Shown in pieces: positions 17,712 to 28,322 of a DNA stretch of 33,000 bases. Under the pieces are notes generated by a model that saw only the letters and a program-made list of their open reading frames with translations, did not search any database and was not told the DNA's origin. How positions within the stretch are numbered: the stretch's first letter is position 1; every line of letters starts with the position of its first letter. The stretch is from the NCBI GenBank assembly GCA_019694755.1, contig JAIBBI010000047.1, positions 1 through 33,000 on the forward strand, given 5' to 3'. Both the position numbers and the translations under genes were made by a program. The stretch is from Gemmataceae bacterium. Lineage in GTDB: Bacteria > Planctomycetota > Planctomycetia > Gemmatales > Gemmataceae.

Positions 17712-17784
17712 GCCGGTGTAGCTCAGCGGTTAGAGCAGCGGCTTCATAAGCCGCGTGTCGCAGGTTCGATCCCTGCCACCGGTA
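17712..17784 (+). tRNA. tRNA-Met (anticodon CAU)
   Basis: A complete 73-base cloverleaf. The acceptor stem GCCGGTG/CACCGGT includes a G-U first pair; the D stem is GCTC/GAGC, the anticodon stem GCGGC/GCCGC with loop TTCATAA, and the T arm GCAGG-TTCGATC-CCTGC. The discriminator base is A, and CCA is not encoded. The anticodon stem lacks the three G-C pairs of initiator tRNA, so this is elongator Met, or possibly an Ile tRNA with lysidine. The 3' half lies inside the 48-bp att repeat, so it is supplied by the integrated element; the gene stays intact. Confidence 0.95.
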
Positions 17785-19367
17785 ATCTTGTCTGACGTAT
17801 TCAGACGCTCTCTATCGGCCTCAAGTGTAGACGGTGTCGACACTTGAGGCCGAGTCATTGACAGGGTCGGCCGGGCGTCGTTTTCACCGTTCGCTATCGA
17901 ACAATGTCGTTCAGAATCACTCCCGAGGGTCAATTCTAGGGTCAATTCCGGAGCCGTGATTTGCATAGGTTGCGACATATCGCCACGTCGACCGGCCCCG
18001 TCTGTTCCCGTCGCTCGAAGACTCTCCGAGGTAGGTGATTTACCCTCGAATGCCGGCAGTCGGTCGATGACCCGCCCGAGGTCGTGGATGCGGGCTTTAC
18101 CATAGACGGCCGTTGTCAGCTTCGGGTCAGAATGCCGGGCCAGTGTCATGGCTTCTTTCAGCGTCGCCCCGGCCCGGTCGAGCATCCACGTGAATAGGTG
18201 ACGGAGCGCGTGAAAGTCGCGATGAAGCGGCCCATCGGGGCCCGCCAGCGTTGCCGGGATACCCGCGGCCGCCAAGTCGCCCCGGAGCATTTCCGCCGCA
18301 CGTGCGGGCCACGAGCCGCCCCACACGGGAAGGTCGAGGGGCAGGGCGTCGAGGTATGCGCTGATTCGGTCAGCCAGAGCGGCCGGGAAGGGTTGCGTCA
18401 CCGTCCGGCCGTTCTTCGCGTTGCGGCCGGTCAGCGTGACCGTGAGTGCGTCCAGGTCGAAGTCGCGGGGCGTCAGACTGGCCAACTCGGAAGCCCGGAA
18501 CCCGGTCCCGGCGGCGAGTTCATAAAGCATGGCCCGGACCGGGCCCGACATACCCCGGAATTCGCGACCGCTGGCCCGGGCCACGTCGATCAGTCGGCTG
18601 AATTCTTCGAGGGACAGGGGCCGCCGGTCGCGCCGTCGTTCATTCACGCGGGGAGGGTGCAAGCCGATCAGCGGGTTATCGCCCGTCCGCCGGTCGGTCA
18701 TCATCCACTTGGAGAACGACTTGATCTCGCGGACGTAATAGGCGAGCGTCTGTTCCCCTCTACTCTGGCCATTGCGTTCGATCAGGGCCAGCACCGTCGA
18801 CCGCGGGAAGGTCCGCGCCGGCCCGGCACCGTTGGCGGGGAGCCCGGCACGTTTAATGAGCGGCGCGACCGATTCCAGTTTGACCCGGAGCAGCTTTGCG
18901 ACTTCGGCCCGCGTAAAGTTTTCCCGGCCTTCATCGAGGGCAGGGGCCGCCTTGCGGGCCGCCAGCTTGGCGACGGCGTGTTGTACCTTGCTGACCGTGA
19001 GTTCCCCGATGGTGGCTATGTCGCCGGCCTGAAGCACCTTCCGGATACGTCCGACCTTGAGGTGAACCTGTTTCGCGGTCGCGCCGCGGTTCTCAAGGAA
19101 TGTCGAGAAGTCCGCCACGTGGTCGGCGAGGGGCCGCCGGCGGTGAACCTCGAAGCAGTTCACAAGCCCGGCCTTTTCATCGGCGACGCGCCCGACGATA
19201 TCGCCAAGCATCTTCGTCGATGCGGTCTTGTTCGTGCAGAGCGGAACGCGCCGGACCTTGCCGTCGGCGTCGCGGTATTGGCCGTACCAGTTCTTCGAGA
19301 CCTTGAGGATACGTTCGCCCGTCGTCGGGTCGACCGTCCAGTGCTTCCGTCGGATGAGTGTAGCCAT
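17730..19367 (-). CDS. Tyrosine recombinase (integrase) whose 3' end crosses attL
   Basis: 545 aa in the integrated form, starting at ATG 19367 (MATLIRRKHWTVDP). An SAM-like/core-binding N-terminal half is followed by the catalytic domain. GTGFRASELASL holds the first Arg, HRDFHALRHLF the HxxR box, ARHSDPKLTTAVYGK the second His and the nucleophile Tyr at about residue 422. All are present, so the enzyme should be active. The tail after Tyr is unusually long (about 123 residues), polar and probably disordered. It includes a duplicated ELTLELTLG and ends GGRDRTCDTRLMKPLL. The last 17 or so residues are encoded by the att core and tRNA. The final two codons and stop lie in the chromosomal 5' half of tRNA-Met. 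In the excised circle the frame would instead join 28103-28274. Confidence 0.93.
   Translation of the reverse strand: MATLIRRKHWTVDPTTGERILKVSKNWYGQYRDADGKVRRVPLCTNKTASTKMLGDIVGRVADEKAGLVNCFEVHRRRPLADHVADFSTFLENRGATAKQVHLKVGRIRKVLQAGDIATIGELTVSKVQHAVAKLAARKAAPALDEGRENFTRAEVAKLLRVKLESVAPLIKRAGLPANGAGPARTFPRSTVLALIERNGQSRGEQTLAYYVREIKSFSKWMMTDRRTGDNPLIGLHPPRVNERRRDRRPLSLEEFSRLIDVARASGREFRGMSGPVRAMLYELAAGTGFRASELASLTPRDFDLDALTVTLTGRNAKNGRTVTQPFPAALADRISAYLDALPLDLPVWGGSWPARAAEMLRGDLAAAGIPATLAGPDGPLHRDFHALRHLFTWMLDRAGATLKEAMTLARHSDPKLTTAVYGKARIHDLGRVIDRLPAFEGKSPTSESLRATGTDGAGRRGDMSQPMQITAPELTLELTLGSDSERHCSIANGENDARPTLSMTRPQVSTPSTLEADRERLNTSDKITGGRDRTCDTRLMKPLL
17740..17787. repeat. attL: 48-bp direct repeat, tRNA 3' half
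   Basis: Begins GGCTTCATAAGCC at the anticodon arm and ends CCACCGGTAATC, 3 bases past the tRNA. It is identical to 28275-28322; the flanking bases differ (C versus T before, TTG versus ACT after). The strand-exchange site lies somewhere inside, most likely near the anticodon stem-loop as for other tRNA-targeting tyrosine recombinases. Confidence 0.93.
17815..17853. repeat. Perfect 14-bp inverted repeat just inside attL
   Basis: Arms TCGGCCTCAAGTGT (17815-17828) and ACACTTGAGGCCGA (17840-17853) with an 11-base loop, 28 bases from the att core and inside the integrase frame. A smaller hairpin GTCTGA-CGTAT-TCAGAC lies between them at 17790-17806. No T tract follows on either strand. It could form an RNA hairpin ending tRNA transcription, or be a recombination-related site. 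Confidence 0.7.
17926..17948 (+). repeat. Tandem AGGGTCAATTC repeat, candidate left arm-type site
   Basis: AGGGTCAATTC occurs at 17926-17936 and again at 17938-17948 (12-base period). The same 12-base-period motif occurs in the same orientation near the right end (28197-28217). In phage-type recombination systems, integrase binds such arm sites on both sides of the core. The copies here are also coding (they give the ELTLELTL peptide), so the assignment is tentative. Confidence 0.45.
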
Positions 19368-19517
19368 GATTCGGTTCTCAAGGTGAATAGGTATCTTACC
19401 CGTTCGCAAACGTGCGCGCAATGGCATCAGGAGCCCGTCGGGCGCTATCGTCCGCTCTCAGTCGGATGTTGTCATTTGTTGAGGTTGGGGCGAATGTTTC
19501 GCGGACTTCTGGCCCGG

Positions 19518-19587
19518 TGGACACATTGGACAGAATGGACAGAATCAAGCCCGAAGCCGGATTGCGTCCATTCCGTCCATTCTGTCC
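19518..19587. repeat. GGACAGAAT tandem and inverted repeats between integrase and DUF3987 genes
   Basis: Three tandem 9-base units GGACACATT, GGACAGAAT, GGACAGAAT (19518-19544) face an inverted copy ATTCCGTCCATTCTGTCC (19570-19587), a match of 17 of 18 to the reverse complement of 19527-19544, across a 25-base loop. It lies in the 226-bp gap 19368-19593, just after the DUF3987 stop and upstream of the integrase. It may be an operator for the integrase, an iteron array, or a hairpin terminating the upstream operon. I see nothing else convincing in that gap. Confidence 0.6.
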
Positions 19588-19593
19588 GCCCCG

Positions 19594-21081
19594 TCATTGC
19601 CGCGGGTTGACTTCGTAAACCGGGCTCGGCTTCCGACCCGGACCCTTCGGCTCGGGTTGCGGCACCGCCCGGATGTAGTCATGCTCGGAGAGCAGGGCGA
19701 GAATGGGTTCGATGTCTGCGGGCTTGTCCAGGGAGCCCCGCAATTGCCGGTAGGCTTCACGCGCCGTGAACCGGCCACCTTCGCACCCGGGAAGCCACCG
19801 GAGCAGTTTGCGGGCCGCCCGGACGGTCTGGTCGGCGTCTATCGCGGCGTACACCTTGCGGGCGTGGCCTTGGAAGTATTCGACAAGCAGGAAGGCCCGC
19901 CGGATCGATTCCCCGTCGATGTATTCCCCCACCGACTCGCCGAGCGCGTTCCGAAGGCAATGGAGAATGAGGGCGAGCCGGAGCAGGTAGGTCCGGAGTT
20001 TGATCCAGGCCCCCCGCAGACATTCGGGAAACTCTTCCACGTTCAGCGCGGTCGCAATCTCCCGGTCGGCTTCGAGCCAATACTCCCGGGCTTCGGTCGT
20101 AAGCAGGATGTAATGCGGCCGGGTCGTACCATCGTCGCGCTGTTCCATCGGCAGGGCGAGCAGTCGGTCGATGACCCCGGCCCATTGCCCCCGTAAGGCG
20201 TCCGACACTTCGAGGACGTTCGCCCCGGCGGCCGGCAGTTCTTCGGGATAGCACCAGAGCCACCGGTCGAGGAAACCGTCATTGATGCGCATTTGCCGGA
20301 ACTGTGTCAGTACGTCCGGCTGCAAACCCCCGACGATGGAACAGAAACTGCGCGGCGAGTAGAGCGGGCCTCCCCCGGCCGACCGGTCGCTCTTGCGGTC
20401 GATCAGGAGCGGGTCGCAACTCCAGATTTTGAGGTAGAACTGCCGGTCGGCACCCTTACCCCCCTTGTATTGATTCAGGCCGGCCACCAGTTCCATGAGT
20501 TCGTCGCGTACCTGAATCAGGCCGCGCGGGTTCTCGGAGATGAGGAGCCCGAGCGTTTCCGTCGTGGTATCGCTTACGAGGACCCGCTGGGCAGTCGGCC
20601 GTGGCCCGCGTTCCTTCGGGTCCCGGCCTTCCCAGACTTCGAGTTCGTCTTTCCAATCGCGCAAGAGTTCCGTTTGCCGACGGTCGAACGCATTCCGGAG
20701 AATCCCGAGCACCGGCGACTTCACCACCCCGGGCCGGCCGATCAGCCCGGCGAACACGAGGGGCGACTCCTGATAGGACCGCTTCGGAGAAATGGCCCGG
20801 GAGTTTGCAATCGCGCCGCTGGCCAGCGCGAGCATCGTCACGGCCGGGAAGTCGACCGGGGCATTCATCGAATAGGCAATTTCATCGGCCAGCTTGGCCA
20901 GTGGGCCGGGCAGAATCTCTCGGGGAAAAGCCGGGGCTTGGATTTCCGCCCCGAGGGGCGTCGGGTCGGGCCAGTCTCCGAGGGCCGTCACGGTGTCGAC
21001 CGGCGGGCCGTTGCGATTCCCGGAATGTCCTTGCGCCTTTCGCGAGCGGGCCCTATCGATGACGGTGGGTTTGGTTCCCAT
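19594..21081 (-). CDS. DUF3987-family protein (primase/helicase-associated ATPase)
   Basis: 495 aa starting at ATG 21081. The DUF3987 core is clear: LADEIAYSMNAPVDFPAVTMLALASG, then a P-loop-like GLIGRPGVVKSP (about residues 113-124), SDTTTETLGLLISENPRG, RDELMELVAGLNQYKGG, and FLDRWLWCYPEEL. Proteins with this domain are common on phages and islands, usually paired with or fused to primase-polymerase domains, and are thought to take part in element DNA replication; no primase domain is seen here. Its start overlaps the stop of the 102-aa gene (TAATG), so the two are translationally coupled. The C-terminal part (about 400-495) resembles a winged-helix tail. Confidence 0.85.
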   Translation of the reverse strand: MGTKPTVIDRARSRKAQGHSGNRNGPPVDTVTALGDWPDPTPLGAEIQAPAFPREILPGPLAKLADEIAYSMNAPVDFPAVTMLALASGAIANSRAISPKRSYQESPLVFAGLIGRPGVVKSPVLGILRNAFDRRQTELLRDWKDELEVWEGRDPKERGPRPTAQRVLVSDTTTETLGLLISENPRGLIQVRDELMELVAGLNQYKGGKGADRQFYLKIWSCDPLLIDRKSDRSAGGGPLYSPRSFCSIVGGLQPDVLTQFRQMRINDGFLDRWLWCYPEELPAAGANVLEVSDALRGQWAGVIDRLLALPMEQRDDGTTRPHYILLTTEAREYWLEADREIATALNVEEFPECLRGAWIKLRTYLLRLALILHCLRNALGESVGEYIDGESIRRAFLLVEYFQGHARKVYAAIDADQTVRAARKLLRWLPGCEGGRFTAREAYRQLRGSLDKPADIEPILALLSEHDYIRAVPQPEPKGPGRKPSPVYEVNPRQ

Positions 21082-21389
21082 TATCGGGCCCCCCGTTTTT
21101 CGAGGTCCGTAACAAGGTCCGCAATCGCGTTGAGGTCGACCTTGATTCCACGGATGACCCGGCCAAGCATCGGCTTGCCTAGGAACCGCCGCTGCACGTG
21201 AACCGGAAGCGGCCAGTACCCGGAGAGGGCAAGCGCGGTCAATTCACGGCGCAGGAACAGCACGAGAGCAGTAGTCGGATTGTCGAGAGCCGGTCGATGG
21301 GTGACGGGGAGTTCCCGATACCGCCGGCGGGCCTTTCGGAGAATGTCGCGCACTTGGCGCGGCATGGGACTGAACGATACAATACTCAT
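21081..21389 (-). CDS. Hypothetical 102-aa basic protein
   Basis: 102 aa from ATG 21389 (MSIVSFSPMPRQ), which has GAGGT about 8 bases upstream; the frame is open to 21446 but that extension lacks a ribosome-binding site. It is Arg-rich, with RDILRKARRRYRELPVTHRP, a hydrophobic TTALVLFLRRELTALALSGYW and a C-terminal VDLNAIADLVTDLEKRGAR helix. I do not recognise the family. The TAATG overlap with the DUF3987 gene suggests a working partner of that protein, for instance an accessory DNA-binding subunit; this is inference. Confidence 0.7.
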   Translation of the reverse strand: MSIVSFSPMPRQVRDILRKARRRYRELPVTHRPALDNPTTALVLFLRRELTALALSGYWPLPVHVQRRFLGKPMLGRVIRGIKVDLNAIADLVTDLEKRGAR

Positions 21390-21452
21390 TGCACGTACCT
21401 CACACATTGGGGTTAGTCGATGGTCGGGGATGAGAGCCCCGGCCATCGGCGT

Positions 21453-21725
21453 TTAGTAGCTTGCGTTCTTTTCGATTGCGGCCCACCGGGCCGCCCATAC
21501 GTCACGTGGCGGGCATTCCGCCCGTACCCAGGCTTCGAGTTCTTCGACGCGGTAAACCCGGGCCCCGCCAACCTTGAAGCCGGCCGGATTCAGCCCGGCG
21601 GCCGACATTCGATCCCATGTCGGGAGGCTGAAGCCCGTGACGTTCGCGGCCCCGCGACGTTTCACCAGCATGGGCCGGCGGCGTGGTTGGTCCGCGGTCG
21701 GCGCGGTCATGGTTTCAATCACCAT
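21453..21725 (-). CDS. AlpA/excisionase-like helix-turn-helix protein
   Basis: 90 aa from ATG 21725, preceded by AGGGGG at 6-7 bases; the ATG at 21785 would add 20 residues overlapping the upstream gene. The centre reads GAANVTGFSLPTWDRMSAAGLNPAGFKVGGARVYRVEELEAWV, the MerR-like HTH_17 layout of AlpA regulators and excisionases (DNA-reading helix, wing with K/R, then WR-type end). In islands such proteins activate the integrase gene or direct excision. The start overlaps the stop of the 80-aa gene by 11 bases. Length and position, between the replication and regulatory genes, fit the role. Confidence 0.8.
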   Translation of the reverse strand: MVIETMTAPTADQPRRRPMLVKRRGAANVTGFSLPTWDRMSAAGLNPAGFKVGGARVYRVEELEAWVRAECPPRDVWAARWAAIEKNASY

Positions 21726-21957
21726 GGCGCACCCCCTTTTGCGCGAAGAGGTTCCGGTCCTTAAGACTTGATGCGAACCGGACAACGATTCCCAATCGTC
21801 CCAGCGTCGATAGGAAATGGCGTTTCAGAGTTGCATCGCCCGCCTTGTGAGCGGCGAAAAGTGATGCGAGAAGAAACGACGGGCTATCCCGAAGACCTTC
21901 GTCGCTATCGGTTAGGCTGTCTGCCCGTCCCTTGAAAACTCGTTTGTTGGCGGCCAC
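21715..21957 (-). CDS. Hypothetical 80-aa protein with GTG start
   Basis: 80 aa from GTG 21957 (VAANKRVFKGRADS), with GGAG about 8 bases upstream in GCGGAGTCGAAAC. It ends inside the start region of the HTH gene, an overlap typical of real operons. The sequence is basic, with FLLASLFAAHKAGDATLKRHFLSTLGRLGIVVRF, predicted helical. I do not recognise a family. It lies directly downstream of the GTTCACGA repeat cluster, so it may be the first gene of the HTH/DUF3987/integrase transcript. Confidence 0.6.
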   Translation of the reverse strand: MAANKRVFKGRADSLTDSDEGLRDSPSFLLASLFAAHKAGDATLKRHFLSTLGRLGIVVRFASSLKDRNLFAQKGVRHGD

Positions 21958-22011
21958 GTTTCGACTCCGCAGTTTTCGGGGCGGCCCAATCGCGCCCTCT
22001 GATAACCGCGG

Positions 22012-22088
22012 CGTTCACGACTAGGAGTTGTGAACGACTGAAAAACTCGGGAACTTTTTCGTGAACACGTTCATGAACGTCGTGAACG
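22012..22088. promoter_or_regulatory. Cluster of GTTCACGA/CGTGAAC motifs, candidate operator or iterons
   Basis: Within 77 bases are CGTTCAC (22012) facing GTGAACG (22030), CGTGAAC (22060), the palindrome GTTCATGAAC (22069-22078) and CGTGAACG (22081). That is five copies or half-sites of one motif. It overlaps the end of the 634-aa gene and sits upstream of the 80-aa gene on the - strand. The arrangement suggests cooperative binding by a regulator or replication initiator coded by the island. Confidence 0.6.
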
Positions 22089-23975
22089 TGGACTCCGGCT
22101 GTCTCGGCGTCGGTCTTTTTCCTGTTCCTCGATCAAGTCCGCGAGGTCGGCATCGTCTTCTATCAACGATTCATCCTCGACAATAGCCAGCATTGTCGGT
22201 AACAGCGGAACGGTTCGAGGTCCGGAGTGCTTTTGTCTGCTTCGTTCAGCGTCGAAGGCCTTCCATATCGGCAATTTGGAGATTTGACCCACCGAAACCT
22301 TCGTATCCGAATTGATTCGTTTGACGGTAATGGAACCCGGGGCCTCTTTGGCGTGTTTCTCCATCCATTCCCGAACCAATACCTCCGCTTCTGCGCGAGC
22401 GATTCGCTTTTTGCCACTGCCACTGGCCTTCCCCCGCCGATTCAAGCCTACCGGTTGTTTTTTCAAACTAGGTCCCTTCGGGAAGCTAAGGCCGTCGGCC
22501 ACCTCGTTCAGCGTCATCGCATCAACGGCGTCAAGCGTCATGTTGAGTTGCTGGCATACGATGCCCCTGATTTGCAGGGCCGTTGATTCGTCAATCGACT
22601 TTCCCCAATTCGCATTCGCGTAGGCTTCGAGTCGGTCGATACCCGGCATCCATTCCGGGTCGGGCCGGAATCGAAGGCACCCCGCCTGAACTTGCGCGTG
22701 CAGGGCCGCCGGGTCTTTCTGCCGGGCCAGGTCCATCGCCCTTTGGTCCTGAAGTCGCGCCGCGCGGTCGCACCGCTGTATCCATGCAATCAATTCGCCA
22801 AGCGTCTTTGGCCCTTTCTCCCCCGGTCCGGTCGACTGCGGAATGGCGGCCTTGAGTTGCATTTCAATCGCCCGTCGCCAAGCACAAAACGACTCCGACA
22901 GTCTCACGAGGGGCAGGCAAGCCGCGACGTACCGCGAATAGACTTCGCAAAGGTAAGGCGAAGCCGGGTCGGGTTCATCGGGGTCGGCGTCCGGGTTCGG
23001 CGGTGCGGCGTCGCGTTGCCAGAGCATCGCATCACGGGCTATCTGTTCCATGACCGCTATATGCCGGGCGACACTGTCTTGATCGGTGCCGGTATCGTGC
23101 CCTGCCTTCAAGGCGGCCGACACGATTGCATGTAACTTCGTCTGCTCACTCCGGACCCGGTCCGCATAAGCTGTGAGTTCTTCGCGGCGGTTCCGGTTAC
23201 CCCCGAGCCGAATCTGTTCGGCGTGGATTACTTGTTCGACGAATTGGATCAGTGCGGCAAAGGGGTCGATGCCTTCACTGACCACCGGCGCAGACTCGGA
23301 AACCGATTGAGTCGGGTCATTGTCGCGAATCATCGTCGCCATACCTCGAAGACTGTCGGCCCAACCTTCCGCCCGTGCGCGGTCGTGGTCGAGTTTCTCT
23401 TCGGTCGAATACTGGCCCACCGTGCCGCGGTCCGGATGCGATACTCGGGCAGCGTCCGCCTTGGATACGTCTTCGCGGACTCTGGACATAATGACCCGGC
23501 CCGCCTCGATCACTGTTTTCCATCGGGCTTCCGAAAAGAGCCGCCGCGATTCGTCGGTTTCCGCGGGGAGGTCGAGCGATAGCCAGTGTCGGGAAAGTAG
23601 GTCCGGCCGTTTGTTCGCAAGCCAATCCATGACTATGAACCGCCAATACCCCTGCAACGGGATTTCTTCGGCGGCGAGCGGGTCGACATCGGCACCTAAG
23701 CCCCTGACACTGTCAGCCAGTCGCACCACGTCATTGGCAAAGGGCAACTCGCCGGCCTTCCCCGCCGCGATGAACAGAGCCGCGGCCCGGGCCACCCGTG
23801 GAATGCAGTTCGCCCGTAACAGCTTCACCGATCCGGCCCGGTTCGCGTGGGCGTAGATCATTTCGGCCAATCTGTCCAATTCGTCCGCGAGGTAACCGGC
23901 GCGGACCGGAGTGCAGTTAGAGTTCCCAGATTTGCCCGGGTGCAGGGAGGTCGAAACGTGCGCAGACGTGGTCAT
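22071..23975 (-). CDS. Hypothetical 634-aa island protein with HTH-like C-terminal region
   Basis: 634 aa from ATG 23975 (MTTSAHVSTSLHP), with AGGTG 7 bases upstream; the frame is open to 24092. No signal peptide or membrane helix. Largely helical throughout, with several Trp-rich helices (IPLQGYWRFIVMDWLANKRP; FCAWRRAIEMQLKAA). Near residues 560-600 a KKRIARAEAEVLVREWMEKH segment leads to RINSDTKVSVGQISKLPIWKAF, which reads like a helix-turn-helix (INxDTxVSxGxISK). The C-terminus is acidic and then very basic (EEQEKDRRRDSRSPRSRRS). Not recognised; a DNA-binding role is inferred. It lies between the restriction enzyme and the regulatory cluster, with 249 bases upstream, so it may have its own promoter. 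Confidence 0.8.
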   Translation of the reverse strand: MTTSAHVSTSLHPGKSGNSNCTPVRAGYLADELDRLAEMIYAHANRAGSVKLLRANCIPRVARAAALFIAAGKAGELPFANDVVRLADSVRGLGADVDPLAAEEIPLQGYWRFIVMDWLANKRPDLLSRHWLSLDLPAETDESRRLFSEARWKTVIEAGRVIMSRVREDVSKADAARVSHPDRGTVGQYSTEEKLDHDRARAEGWADSLRGMATMIRDNDPTQSVSESAPVVSEGIDPFAALIQFVEQVIHAEQIRLGGNRNRREELTAYADRVRSEQTKLHAIVSAALKAGHDTGTDQDSVARHIAVMEQIARDAMLWQRDAAPPNPDADPDEPDPASPYLCEVYSRYVAACLPLVRLSESFCAWRRAIEMQLKAAIPQSTGPGEKGPKTLGELIAWIQRCDRAARLQDQRAMDLARQKDPAALHAQVQAGCLRFRPDPEWMPGIDRLEAYANANWGKSIDESTALQIRGIVCQQLNMTLDAVDAMTLNEVADGLSFPKGPSLKKQPVGLNRRGKASGSGKKRIARAEAEVLVREWMEKHAKEAPGSITVKRINSDTKVSVGQISKLPIWKAFDAERSRQKHSGPRTVPLLPTMLAIVEDESLIEDDADLADLIEEQEKDRRRDSRSPRSRRS

Positions 23976-24224
23976 TCGAGGGCACCTATCAGCCGGGTCG
24001 ACGCGCCGGCCGGCCGTAGGTGCCACGGCGCGGCCGACGAATCGCAAGGGAGCCTCTGGCCAGAGGAACCCGACCCAGATCGAAAGGATCATACCCGAAA
24101 CGAACGTCGAAAAGCAGGTCCGCGGTCAAATCCGGTCCCGTCGTCTTACCTTTCAAAACTCGCCATGAAATGCGTCCCGGAGCGAGAAGGGTCTTGCGGT
24201 CGGCTGTCCTGAGGGTGTGACCCC
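23976..24224. other. 249-bp gap upstream of the 634-aa gene; 14-bp palindrome
   Basis: This gap between the restriction-modification gene and the 634-aa gene holds a perfect palindrome CCTCTGGCCAGAGG at 24053-24066, a possible operator. On the - strand a TATGAT at 24087-24092 could be a -10 box, but no -35 is convincing at 17 bases. No supported gene. Confidence 0.4.
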
Positions 24225-27200
24225 CTATCCCCCCGTCGGCGGGCCGACCGGCATTCGGGGCGGGGCGGTCTTCCACATGAGGGCGACTTCGTCGGGGGTC
24301 AGCCCGTAGGCTTCGTTCACGAGGTCGGCGACGCGACGTTCCAGGGCCGCCGCTTCGGCCGCCGCGGTCCGCAACGGTTCGACTGTCTTGGCGTGTTCGT
24401 CCTTCAGCCGTTTGATCCCGGCCACCGTGAGCGGTTTCTGTTTCCCGCGCACCTTGCGAACTTCACCGATGAACCCGTCGGCGTCAAGGGCCACCACGTC
24501 CGCCAGTCGTTGCGTCGGCTTCTCGACTTCGAATTCGTGCCGGAGCCAGTCGAGAGTATTGGCTTGCCCTGAATTGCAATCCGCGGCCAAGGTCAGGATT
24601 CTCAAAACCGCCTTCCGTGCTTCATCTCGCGTTTTCGCCCTTGGGGTCGGAATGGGAAGTCGTTCGACATACTGAGTGAATAAGCGATATCGGAACTCCC
24701 CGCGTCGTTCCCCAAATGCGGTTGAAATCCCAGACAAGACAAACCACGTTGTCGGGCTATTCAGGACGGCCAAAAGCCACAAATCTTCCGATGGAAAGAA
24801 GTACGCAGTGTTTCGGGCGTACGCGCAAGTTTTGTCGAATGCGAATCGGTTATCCTTGGCGATATCGGGGTAAATAATCTTTGGTTTATCGAATGCATCG
24901 TAATAGTCGCACGACCGGAGTTCCCACCAAAACTCGCCTTGATCCAGTCGGCTGCGGGCTTTGTCTTCGAACGGTGCCAAGTGTGCTGCAACTCCCGGAT
25001 AAGTCCGATTCAGCCAATCCCAGCATATTGTAGGGTCGTCCGTCTTGGCCAACCGACGTGTTACTCCGGAAGGAATCGCGATTACCCATTCTCCGGGGTC
25101 TTGCACGATCCAACGGCGTACATTCGTCCCCGCAACGAACGGCCTCAGTATCTCATGAGACTTTCCGTCGCGAGTAATCTGTTTCCGACTTTCAGCGTCA
25201 ACAACGAACCCTTCATTCAGGCCGGTAATGAGCCCGCGAAATAGCGGGCCGCCCGCAGCCTCACTAAGCGGTTGGCCAATGGAAAGTAGCTTCTTTCGAA
25301 GCAGGCTGAGCTTCGGATCGTCAAGCACCCACCCTGAATCATCCAAGGATTGAACGGCAATGGTTTGCGAATTCTCTTCGATCAATTTCTCGATTAGATC
25401 GACCCGTTCACCTCGTCGAACGCGAACGGTAACGAATTCCGTCTTGGGACGGGAAGCCTGCTTAGCCGCGACTACTATGGCGGGATAGACATCTTTTGCG
25501 TCTTCAAATACTTGTGTATCCCCCAGGTCGATTAGTTTCTCCAAGGATGCAGCCCGTTTGAGTAACTGGCGTAAGGGCACGGCAAATGCAGCGCGGAGGA
25601 ATGAGTTACTCGAAATGAACCCGAGCCGGCCACCGGGCTTCAGGACGTTCATCCCCAATTCGTAGAAGTAGACGTACAGGTCCGCGACCCCGTCATAGGC
25701 GCGGTAATGCTCCTGAAGATACGGCTTGTCTTTCGCTATCCACTCCTGCCGGACATAGGGCGGGTTGCCGATGACCACGTCGAACCCGCCGTCGGCAAAC
25801 GGGCCCGGGAAACGGGCCTGCCATGCGGCCATTGGCGACGGGTGCCCGACGATGCTGTTCCCCTGCACGATGTTGGCGTCGAGGGTCGTCAGCACCTTCC
25901 CCTTCCGCGCTGTCTTGATCCACAAGCTAAGCCGACAGATTTCCACGGCTTCGGAATTCAGGTCCATCCCGAAGAGGTTCGATTCCAGAATCTCCCGGTC
26001 GAGGTCGAACAGGTCGGGCCCGCCCACTTCCCGAGCCCGGTCGACCGTCCGCCGGTATTCGGCGAAGAGTTGCTCGAATGCTTCGATCAGGAACGCGCCC
26101 GAGCCGCAAGCCGGGTCGACTATGCGGACGGTCCGAAGTTCGTCGTGCCACCCGTTCCAGAACTTTGCCAGCGTGGCCTTTTCTTTCGCCTTCAGCCCGG
26201 TCGTGTCGATGGTCCGCGGGTCGTCGAGGAGTGCCCGCAGAGCCGCCGGGGCGGCCCCGCGGGCGTCCTTGCGGTATCGCTCGAAGCGATCAGCCAGGAC
26301 GGGCCCGAGCGTTGCCTGCACGATGTACCGGGTCACGAAGGCCGGGGTATAGAACGCGCCCTCTTTCTTTCGCTTCGTCGGTCCGGTCTTCGTCGGCGGG
26401 GCGTCCGGGTCGGCGGTAATCTGCCGTTGCAACTCTTCGAGGTCGGCGATGGATTGCTCGAAGATATGCCCGAGGATTTCCACATCGACGAACTGCGCGT
26501 CGGTCTTGTCGGTCGGCGAGCCGTATTCGTAGGCGGCCAGTCGGTCGAACCCCCGGCAGACCACGTCCGGCACCGTGAGCGATTCGAGCAGCGGGTCGGG
26601 GGCGAACAGCCCGCCGTTGTACCGCTCGATACTCTGCTTCGCGTTCCCTTCGTTGACCCACTTGAACAGGGCCCGGAAGTTATCCCAGACCGGCCGGGGG
26701 TTGTATTCGTCGGCGTGGCGAAAGGCCCGGTGGATCGACTGCGCCGGCAATAGGCCGCGGTCTTCGGCGAACGCGATGAAGAGAACCCGGTCGAGGATTT
26801 TCTGCGCCGCGGCGAGCAGGTCGGCGGGCGGTATCTTCGGGTTGGCGTCGCGCAGCTTGTCGAAGGCGTTGCGGCGCAGTTCGGCGTATTCGCGGTAGTA
26901 GTCGTTTGTCAGTTCCCGCCCGATCTTCGCGGATTCGGCGAGCAGCGCGTCGAGGTGATTCCCCGCCGGGGCGAGCATCCGGTCGGCCCCGAGCAGGAAT
27001 ACGAACCGCTTCAGTTCGTCGTCGTCGAGGGCCAGGCGGGCGAGTTCAAACCGTTCGTACGTCTGAAGGTCGTGGCCCTTGTGATAGAGCCGGAGTTCCT
27101 GAAAGTTCGTGACGATGAACCAATCAATCTGAAGGTTGACGGCGTATTGCAGGGCTTGCTCGACTGCGGACCGCTTGCGCCCGGCGAACGGACGGTCGAG

Positions 27201-27566
27201 CGGGTCACGCGGGCCCTTGCCTTCGATGACCGCGGTAAAGAGGGATTCCCCGCCGGATCGGTCGAACTGGCCGAGCGCGGCGTCGGCCCGCTTCCCGTCG
27301 ACCGTGATGAGCGATTCCCGGCGGTAGTTGAATATCTTCTCGCCGGAGTCCCGGGCCGTGTACCCGAGCAGTGAGACGAAGATATCCCGGAGAAACTCCG
27401 GGAGTTGTTCCGTTTCCTTGAAGGCGTCGCCCGAGGTGCCGGCCAGGTTGGCGGCCCACCTGCGTACGTTTTCCCCGGCCCGCAGAACTTCGGGCGGTCG
27501 GACGAAGTGAAGCAGCTTGACCCGTAGGGCTTCAGGTCGGAAAAGGGGCTTGGCGTCGGTGGGCAT
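24225..27566 (-). CDS. Type IIG (Eco57I-like) restriction-modification enzyme
   Basis: 1113 aa. The N-terminus has a PD-(D/E)xK-like nuclease site: ADAAL (Asp about 95), then VIEGKGP (Glu about 115, Lys about 117). A helical connector follows. The N6-adenine methylase part has GAFYTPAFVTRYIV, motif I DPACGSGAFLIEAF (about 484), LFGMDLNSEAVEICRLSLWI, and motif IV NPPY (about 601-604). The C-terminal part carries a TaqI-type target recognition domain (LFRGLITGLNEG; RPFVAGTNVRRWIV) and a terminal coiled segment. Cutting and methylation thus sit in one chain, with no separate R, M or S genes. The region 24600-25600 is clearly richer in A/T than the rest, suggesting a replaced recognition domain. 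BREX PglX was considered, but no BREX genes are present. Confidence 0.9.
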   Translation of the reverse strand: MPTDAKPLFRPEALRVKLLHFVRPPEVLRAGENVRRWAANLAGTSGDAFKETEQLPEFLRDIFVSLLGYTARDSGEKIFNYRRESLITVDGKRADAALGQFDRSGGESLFTAVIEGKGPRDPLDRPFAGRKRSAVEQALQYAVNLQIDWFIVTNFQELRLYHKGHDLQTYERFELARLALDDDELKRFVFLLGADRMLAPAGNHLDALLAESAKIGRELTNDYYREYAELRRNAFDKLRDANPKIPPADLLAAAQKILDRVLFIAFAEDRGLLPAQSIHRAFRHADEYNPRPVWDNFRALFKWVNEGNAKQSIERYNGGLFAPDPLLESLTVPDVVCRGFDRLAAYEYGSPTDKTDAQFVDVEILGHIFEQSIADLEELQRQITADPDAPPTKTGPTKRKKEGAFYTPAFVTRYIVQATLGPVLADRFERYRKDARGAAPAALRALLDDPRTIDTTGLKAKEKATLAKFWNGWHDELRTVRIVDPACGSGAFLIEAFEQLFAEYRRTVDRAREVGGPDLFDLDREILESNLFGMDLNSEAVEICRLSLWIKTARKGKVLTTLDANIVQGNSIVGHPSPMAAWQARFPGPFADGGFDVVIGNPPYVRQEWIAKDKPYLQEHYRAYDGVADLYVYFYELGMNVLKPGGRLGFISSNSFLRAAFAVPLRQLLKRAASLEKLIDLGDTQVFEDAKDVYPAIVVAAKQASRPKTEFVTVRVRRGERVDLIEKLIEENSQTIAVQSLDDSGWVLDDPKLSLLRKKLLSIGQPLSEAAGGPLFRGLITGLNEGFVVDAESRKQITRDGKSHEILRPFVAGTNVRRWIVQDPGEWVIAIPSGVTRRLAKTDDPTICWDWLNRTYPGVAAHLAPFEDKARSRLDQGEFWWELRSCDYYDAFDKPKIIYPDIAKDNRFAFDKTCAYARNTAYFFPSEDLWLLAVLNSPTTWFVLSGISTAFGERRGEFRYRLFTQYVERLPIPTPRAKTRDEARKAVLRILTLAADCNSGQANTLDWLRHEFEVEKPTQRLADVVALDADGFIGEVRKVRGKQKPLTVAGIKRLKDEHAKTVEPLRTAAAEAAALERRVADLVNEAYGLTPDEVALMWKTAPPRMPVGPPTGG

Positions 27567-28102
27567 CGTCGCGGTTCGCTGGCCAATGGGGGCGAGTCCT
27601 GTTCAGCGTACCGGAACAGCCCCGCCGGGCCACGAGGAACGCACCAGACGGGCCGCGGCCGACGGTTGGACGCAATACCCCTTGACCCCCTTCCAAGCCC
27701 ATTGGAACGGGACACGAAGGGCACCGGCTAACGCATTATTGACCCGGGCGGTCCCGATACAACCGGGCCGCCTTTTTTTGGGTGCGAATGTTCGCACACT
27801 TCCCGACACGGCACGGCTAGCGCACCGGGACCCGGGCCGGGCCTATCCGCGACCGGGGAAGATTGAACGCGCACTGCGAGTGAACCGGCCGGTCCCTTTT
27901 TTTAGTGGGGCATTATGCGCACGGTCCGGCCTTTTTTTGGGGTCCGACTTCGGTCCATCGCTGGACCCCATTCCGCTGATAACCCGCGCAAAGATCGGGA
28001 ATGGAATACCGAATGGTCCCGGTCAGTCGACCGAAAAGGGAATCCCCCCCCGGGTCGTCGCGGCCGTCGCGAGTCCTTTTTTGGCGCAACATTATCCCCC
28101 GG
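27567..28102. other. 536-bp non-coding region with four T tracts
   Basis: No credible gene. Four similar tracts are seen on the + strand: CC-T7-GGG (27773), CCC-T7-AG (27897), CC-T7-GGGG (27932) and CC-T6-GG (28077), each next to GC-rich sequence. An inverted repeat GTGCGAA-TG-TTCGCAC lies at 27782-27797. It is upstream of the restriction gene on the - strand and adjoins the detached integrase tail, so it may hold the promoter of the restriction gene. Confidence 0.5.
27747..27779 (+). terminator. Intrinsic terminator-like hairpin
   Basis: Stem GGCGG-(T)-CCCG (27747-27756) pairs with CGGG-CCGCC (27764-27772), nine pairs with one bulged base, loop of 7, followed by seven T. It reads on the + strand, though no + strand gene in the island ends there. 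It may block readthrough toward the right end. Confidence 0.55.
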
Positions 28103-28274
28103 TCATCTGGCCCCGACGAGCGCGAGCATGGCCCGCCGGATCGGCTCGGGGAGCGTCGGCCATGCTTCGAGGATGCGGGCGAGGTCCGGGTCGGGAGAGT
28201 CAATTTCAGGGTCAATGGTCGAGGCGATTCGCGGTAAGTCGTTGACGGTGTCCGGCTTGGAAATGGTGTCTAAT
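28103..28274 (-). other. Detached integrase C-terminal coding segment
   Basis: On the - strand the frame that spells GGRDRTCDTRLMKP in attR continues out of the repeat into this segment for about 56 residues to TGA 28103. It includes the Asp/Pro-rich IDPEIDSPDPDLA and then a helical motif AWPTLPEPIRRAMLALV near the end. It lacks its own plausible start and ribosome-binding site. When the element is circular the integrase frame would run straight into it, giving a 599-aa protein. I recall similar W-P-L-P-x-x-I-R-x-x-x-L-A-L endings in planctomycete recombinases, but have not verified this. Confidence 0.65.
28197..28217 (+). repeat. Tandem GAGTCAATT/GGGTCAAT, candidate right arm-type site
   Basis: GAGTCAATT (28197-28205) and AGGGTCAATG (28208-28217) repeat with a 12-base period and the same orientation as the pair at 17926-17948. 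They lie about 60 bases from attR, against about 140 bases from attL for the other pair. Candidate integrase arm sites. Confidence 0.45.
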
Positions 28275-28322
28275 GGCTTCATAAGCCGCGTGTCGCAGGT
28301 TCGATCCCTGCCACCGGTAATC
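28275..28322. repeat. attR: 48-bp direct repeat, displaced tRNA 3' half
   Basis: Identical to attL (17740-17787) and without the tRNA 5' half, so it is not a functional tRNA gene. It is the original chromosomal 3' half displaced by the insertion. It is followed by the hairpin at 28338-28363. Confidence 0.93.

Follow-up and report, generated by a model that had tools for sequence, protein, structure and literature searches.

A widespread family of planctomycete tRNA-targeting integrases with attP inside the gene and a conserved C-terminal module predicted to be lost upon integration

In the Myxococcus phage Mx8, attP is located within the gene of a tyrosine integrase and integration swaps the 112 C-terminal residues of the enzyme for 13 others, a replacement that alters activity or specificity, as later papers report (PMC4701971, PMC6070905). 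A paper describing a database of tRNA islands states that the Mx8 and SSV integrases both extend across attP (PMC4383910). In the SSV-type archaeal suicidal integrases, attP lies in int at tRNA genes and integration splits the gene, and a review of the archaeal enzymes describes self-disruption of integrases as exclusive to archaea (PMC8371274). Mycobacteriophages such as BPs carry attP in a regulatory gene whose product is integration-dependent (PMC4557955), and in the streptococcal ICEs found in rumA the att site is inside a serine integrase gene, the C-terminus of which is swapped by integration (PMC4701971). Our literature search found nothing linking planctomycete integrases, attP and tRNA genes.

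The locus studied here lies in a window of 33,000 nucleotides, the whole stretch of DNA that was analysed, from a contig of a Gemmataceae bacterium. Exact 48-bp direct repeats at 17740-17787 and 28275-28322 bound an integrated element of 10.5 kb. The attL copy consists of the 3' part of the target gene, a tRNA-Met (CAT) at 17712-17784 on the plus strand, followed by 3 nt; ARAGORN detects the complete, restored tRNA only there, the attR copy being a tRNA fragment. The minus-strand integrase (17730-19367) has 545 aa from the ATG at 19367 (MATLIRRK...), the start that aligns with homologues, or 565 aa from the ATG at 19427, and it meets the definition of a tyrosine recombinase by its matches to PF00589 and phrog_1 (integrase) and by the invariant R, K, H, R, H and Y columns. 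Also on the minus strand are a DUF3987 protein, a replication-type gene of the element (19594-21081; PF13148, E 6.6e-54; phrog_2373 DNA helicase), a candidate helix-turn-helix excisionase (21453-21785; phrog_66 excisionase, E 1.9e-5; HTH_17 below the curated cut-off) and, as cargo, an Eco57I/TaqI-like restriction-modification protein (24225-27566; PF07669, PF12950). The same genome (G000) has a second element of like design, in which the integrase (L072, contig C23) ends in antisense tRNA-Lys (TTT) and the tail (L155), located on another contig (C9), follows the same 52-bp core in frame. A third orphan tail occurs at C79:5994-6086 (L156), for which the matching integrase was not found.

The initial annotation had proposed that the integrase frame crosses the att core and stops two codons later at attL, that it continues beyond attR for about 56 codons to a TGA at 28103, and that the circle would encode 599 aa as against 545 aa in the integrated form; translation across the predicted junction confirmed all three. 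In the integrated form the core is read in the integrase frame as GGRDRTCDTRLMKP followed by LL and a stop, the last integrase codons being antisense tRNA. When the ends are re-joined as in the excised circle, the frame reaches 599 aa, or 619 aa from ATG 19427, before the TGA at 28103-28105; its C-terminus is ARILEAWPTLPEPIRRAMLALVGAR and its tail ends in ...DSPDPDLARILEAWPTLPEPIRRAMLALVGAR. This tail, 56 codons plus TGA (28103-28274, minus strand), belongs to the circular form only, is orphaned at attR in the integrated element and has core-matched counterparts in relatives. It carries the conserved motif DPDLARILEAWPTLPEPIRRAMLALVGAR (28106-28198, minus strand; tail profile E 2.5e-16), a hairpin in the models of relatives. 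The catalytic residues are all upstream of the core and are kept in the integrated frame. The locus meets the definition of attP-in-int switching, with the attP core within the int coding frame and C-termini that differ between the two states, which are shown, at the sequence level, to encode different enzymes.

A whole-genome search identified integrase homologues in 171 of the 297 genomes of the host's class, the named relatives being Gemmataceae, Fimbriiglobus, Gemmata and other Planctomycetota. We oriented 60 regions of at most 20 kb each by their integrase and, without using the tail, searched for direct repeats shared by the 3' end of the integrase and the DNA upstream. A tRNA-type core pair was present in 11 elements, including that of the window; nine run in the integrase frame into a common motif and another (L049) continues in frame into a diverged version of it. 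In the eleventh, L040 (G062:C1), the in-frame continuation is a copy in which an internal deletion of the attR tail has taken the greater part of the motif, pointing to decay after integration.

With the cut-off at E 0.01, a tail profile built from alignment A1 matched 201 of the 297 class genomes; at E 0.001 it matched 55 of 246 genomes sampled from the phylum as a whole. Most of the matches are orphan frames with a length of roughly 50-260 codons. Among the best thirty tail loci, a tRNA T-arm signature stands in frame ahead of most tails, which marks those tails as attR ends. On the integrase side, 47 of 75 frames overlap a complete antisense tRNA gene and 20 anticodons are represented (counting one doubtful Val call from a contiguous locus); the other 28 frames comprise 11 with a T-arm signature only, 14 with neither, two contiguous with the tail and one that runs off its contig. 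Given that 14 of the 75 are without tRNA overlap, some ending just before the tRNA, the overlap is not obligatory. Three related integrases (L058, L067 and L076) end 46-142 nt before an antisense tRNA and do not overlap it; they provide a natural comparison group without the switch. Each species is represented by a single genome, in many cases a fragmentary one, which makes the pair counts reported below lower bounds. Single-protein pattern scans of viral and genome contigs returned no match, and sequenced phages and plasmids contained no close integrase and only chance-level matches to the tail consensus.

Pairing tails with integrases within each genome by their common core gave 30 pairs, window included, several of which come from related elements and hence are not fully independent. 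The motif, about 30 aa long with consensus DPDLARVIEAWPxLPExIRRAILALV, is found at the distal end in the integrase's own frame in 29 of the 30 pairs, whereas about one third would be in frame by chance. Strict agreement holds for 27 pairs, and G036 and G057 agree after inspection, once a mismatch and a C6/C7 run are allowed for. Their frame conflict was only apparent: in G036 a C6/C7 run lies inside the core and the frames agree downstream, and in G057 an arm repeat had been matched and not the core. The sole failing pair is G155:C272, in which the integrase stops before the core. The antisense T-arm is crossed in all three frames (11, 8 and 3 of the 22 in-frame integrases with an anchorable T-arm), and the coupling can therefore not be the fossil of one ancestral frame. 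The peptide common to both cores was also considered as the conserved part and rejected, since it is antisense tRNA and varies by target.

Apparent tails directly downstream of integrases in G146, G072 and G036 were excluded as search-made overlaps or neighbouring att remnants. In these same genomes, some tails (L142, L083 and L128, respectively) adjoin other integrase ends or att remnants, which suggests tandem accretion at the same tRNA gene. A minority set (L134, L083, L131 and L133) crosses the tRNA in another orientation or position, with a forward T-arm signature, and keeps the tail in frame after a longer linker of 57-74 codons. In G030:C1 the integrase and its core-matched tail are about 178 kb apart (around 2053196 and 2231663), so that the island is very large or has since taken up insertions.

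Mean identity over the 30 pairs was 0.50 for the motif as against 0.40 for the catalytic domain. Conservation is weak in the linker before the core (0.30) and absent from the one between core and motif (0.22 vs 0.21 when shuffled). Motif distances follow those of each element's own catalytic domain (Mantel r 0.38, p 0.0005), and the median dN/dS of the tail was 0.30 (68 tails, 386 pairs) vs 1.17 and 2.42 in the shifted frames. The tails used for dN/dS were picked by a protein profile, which biases the value low; the core-defined set of 11 elements, chosen without the tail, shows the same motif as the profile-selected set. By these measures the hairpin is under purifying selection and evolves as a protein.

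Integrase, antisense-tRNA peptide and tail also occur uninterrupted in a single frame in L163 (G190:C66), in L164 (G235:C122, the same locus as L222), which is a Fimbriiglobus MAG contig, and in the viral contig L192 (IMGVR_UViG_3300036717_000070). In a second viral contig, L177 (IMGVR_UViG_3300031673_000939), integrase and tail again share one frame, the tRNA-like peptide being judged by eye. All four contigs are without a tRNA gene according to ARAGORN. L163 and L164 show no terminal overlap and their circularity is not shown; the unintegrated form is, by this layout, present in the data, without proof that the attP-form contigs are circular. Five other long tail-bearing frames (L144-L148) were not counted, having no integrase-profile match at the threshold used. 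L163 carries, going by its reading frames, an apparent type III modification/restriction pair as cargo. The tail is thus present in homologous integrases: about 29 elements, at many tRNA genes, have it as an orphan at attR and these four contigs have it contiguous with the enzyme. The expectation that the 28103-28274 segment would be conserved at the codon level held when dN/dS was used as the test. Since the tail is kept in homologues and conserved as codons, the proposal of the initial annotation that integration changes the encoded enzyme is borne out, and selection maintains the part that is lost; the property that changes may be directionality, stability or DNA binding.

The core is flanked on either side, in many elements, by tandem repeats with a spacing of about 12 bp. 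Their sequences differ from element to element and their distances are near-constant, mostly about 150-161 nt before the core on the integrase side and 55-69 nt after it on the tail side. In L062 and L091 one DNA repeat yields the peptide GVVPGVV on one side and GRSAGRS on the other, as expected of a site that acts at the DNA level. In the window, the putative arm-type sites with this layout are a tandem 12-bp-spaced GGGTCAATTC (GGGTCAATTCTAGGGTCAATTC) at 17927-17948, which lies within integrase coding sequence at a distance of about 140-161 nt from the core, and GAGTCAATT...GGGTCAATGG (GAGTCAATTTCAGGGTCAATGG) at 28198-28219, which lies within tail coding sequence at about 55-77 nt from it. 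That these repeats are arm-type integrase sites is an inference from their appearance, without binding data; if they are, the whole attP would sit within coding sequence. For both of the contiguous viral proteins, AlphaFold gives a well-modelled recombinase core followed by a disordered stretch, in which the attP region lies, with a helical hairpin after it; the hairpin has two helices and an invariant W. In the first model, residues 394-508 are disordered and the helices span 512-519 and 526-536 (mean pLDDT about 80-92); in the second, the disordered stretch is 384-492 and the helices, of lower confidence, are 494-502 and 509-519. Foldseek groups the first model, that of a relative, with XerA, Tn1549 Int and lambda Int.

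The non-reversal of tyrosine integrase reactions is usually credited to separate excisionase proteins. We propose that attP, made up of the tRNA core with arm sites on each side and about 290 bp in length, would lie wholly inside the 3' part of the integrase gene, where the stretch bearing it would encode a disordered linker. At the level of sequence, the free circle encodes the catalytic domain, the linker, an antisense-tRNA peptide and the C-terminal helical hairpin. The crossover in the tRNA core splits the gene between core and tail, leaving the hairpin stranded at attR, while the integrated copy keeps its catalytic domain whole, with a short tRNA-derived peptide at its end. Because the fused hairpin is visible to selection only in the circle, it most likely serves integration, perhaps as a module for docking or for oligomerisation (in synapsis, or in docking to an arm or a partner); its loss may bias the integrated enzyme away from integration, and excision would use the tail-less enzyme with the candidate excisionase at 21453-21785. 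We give this account as a whole, for which there are no functional data, a probability of about 0.6. An integration-specific role of the tail is the one we favour, its function being inferred without any experiment.

Other explanations have to be weighed against this one. A linker of this length would stay open by chance about 35% of the time, and the tail might be no more than a chance open frame in G+C-rich DNA; we rejected this on the frame agreement of the 29 pairs, the dN/dS values and the contiguous natural copies. It is also conceivable that attP merely overlaps the 3' end of int, the tail being generally useful and both forms working equally well, given that attP beside or overlapping int is common and that relatives without overlap do exist. 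However, conservation is higher in the tail than in the catalytic domain, and the tail stays in frame through all three tRNA frames, yet every integrated copy is without it; were it of equal value in both states, selection would act against its loss on integration. This makes such a by-product rather unlikely.

The hairpin could also act on the amount of enzyme and not on its reaction preference, by marking the circle-encoded integrase for proteolysis or shielding it, and its C-terminal position and hydrophobic helices would, by inference, be compatible with protease or chaperone contact. The last residues, however, are not conserved (GAR, AAGG, GAK, GTNG, SRG, STK), unlike those of ssrA-type tags, the conservation being in the two-helix hairpin with its invariant W, and we consider a stability tag unlikely. 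As for the orphan frames at attR, they stay open and are conserved in many genomes, as if a small protein expressed from them acted in trans on the truncated integrase; but ahead of the orphan motif a start codon is not consistently present and no sequence is conserved, since the linker is random and what lies upstream is host DNA, which varies by site. The open orphan frames are explained by conservation while circular, and their expression seems very improbable.

Returning to the favoured integration-specific role, dozens of elements at many tRNA genes keep, under selection, a part of the enzyme that is present only prior to integration, which makes a direction switch encoded in cis directly testable. 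Such a built-in switch could tell the enzyme whether the element is inserted. We hold the odds to be even that this phylum-wide tRNA-targeting family uses the junction in this manner, with a hairpin that promotes integration and is removed by it. The layout accounts for the tRNA-derived peptides at the ends of planctomycete integrases, and it offers a search rule, in which an integrase end and an orphan tail at the distal core copy delimit such elements.

In regards to known systems, the closest precedent is Mx8, and not the SSV viruses or mycobacteriophage repressors cited in the initial annotation. The planctomycete catalytic residues lie upstream of the core and are kept upon integration, so that the SSV-type suicidal class is not met: there the N-terminal part is parted from the catalytic domain, whereas here integration leaves that domain whole and takes away only a C-terminal module. 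BPs-type immunity is not met either, attP being in the integrase gene and not in a repressor gene, and the rumA ICEs differ in having a serine recombinase and a protein-coding target with whose gene, rumA, the 3' parts are exchanged. As in Mx8 (and also Mx9), attP is within the coding sequence of a tyrosine integrase, and Mx8 Int contains a peptide of the antisense-tRNA type, STGLEPVLLGSF. Unlike the planctomycete integrases, Mx8 Int is without the hairpin motif (1.0 bit with the tail profile), and its match to the planctomycete integrase profile is marginal (E 0.003, one-sequence search); in the absence of a tail-profile match, the planctomycete group is not a member of an Mx8 family by descent. 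Mx8 and Mx9 are single phages, while the planctomycete module recurs across a phylum at tRNA genes of 20 anticodons. What is new is the conserved C-terminal module throughout the phylum, together with the regular attP layout, and as far as sequence alone can tell, this is a widespread attP-in-int family that works like Mx8, with integration removing that module.
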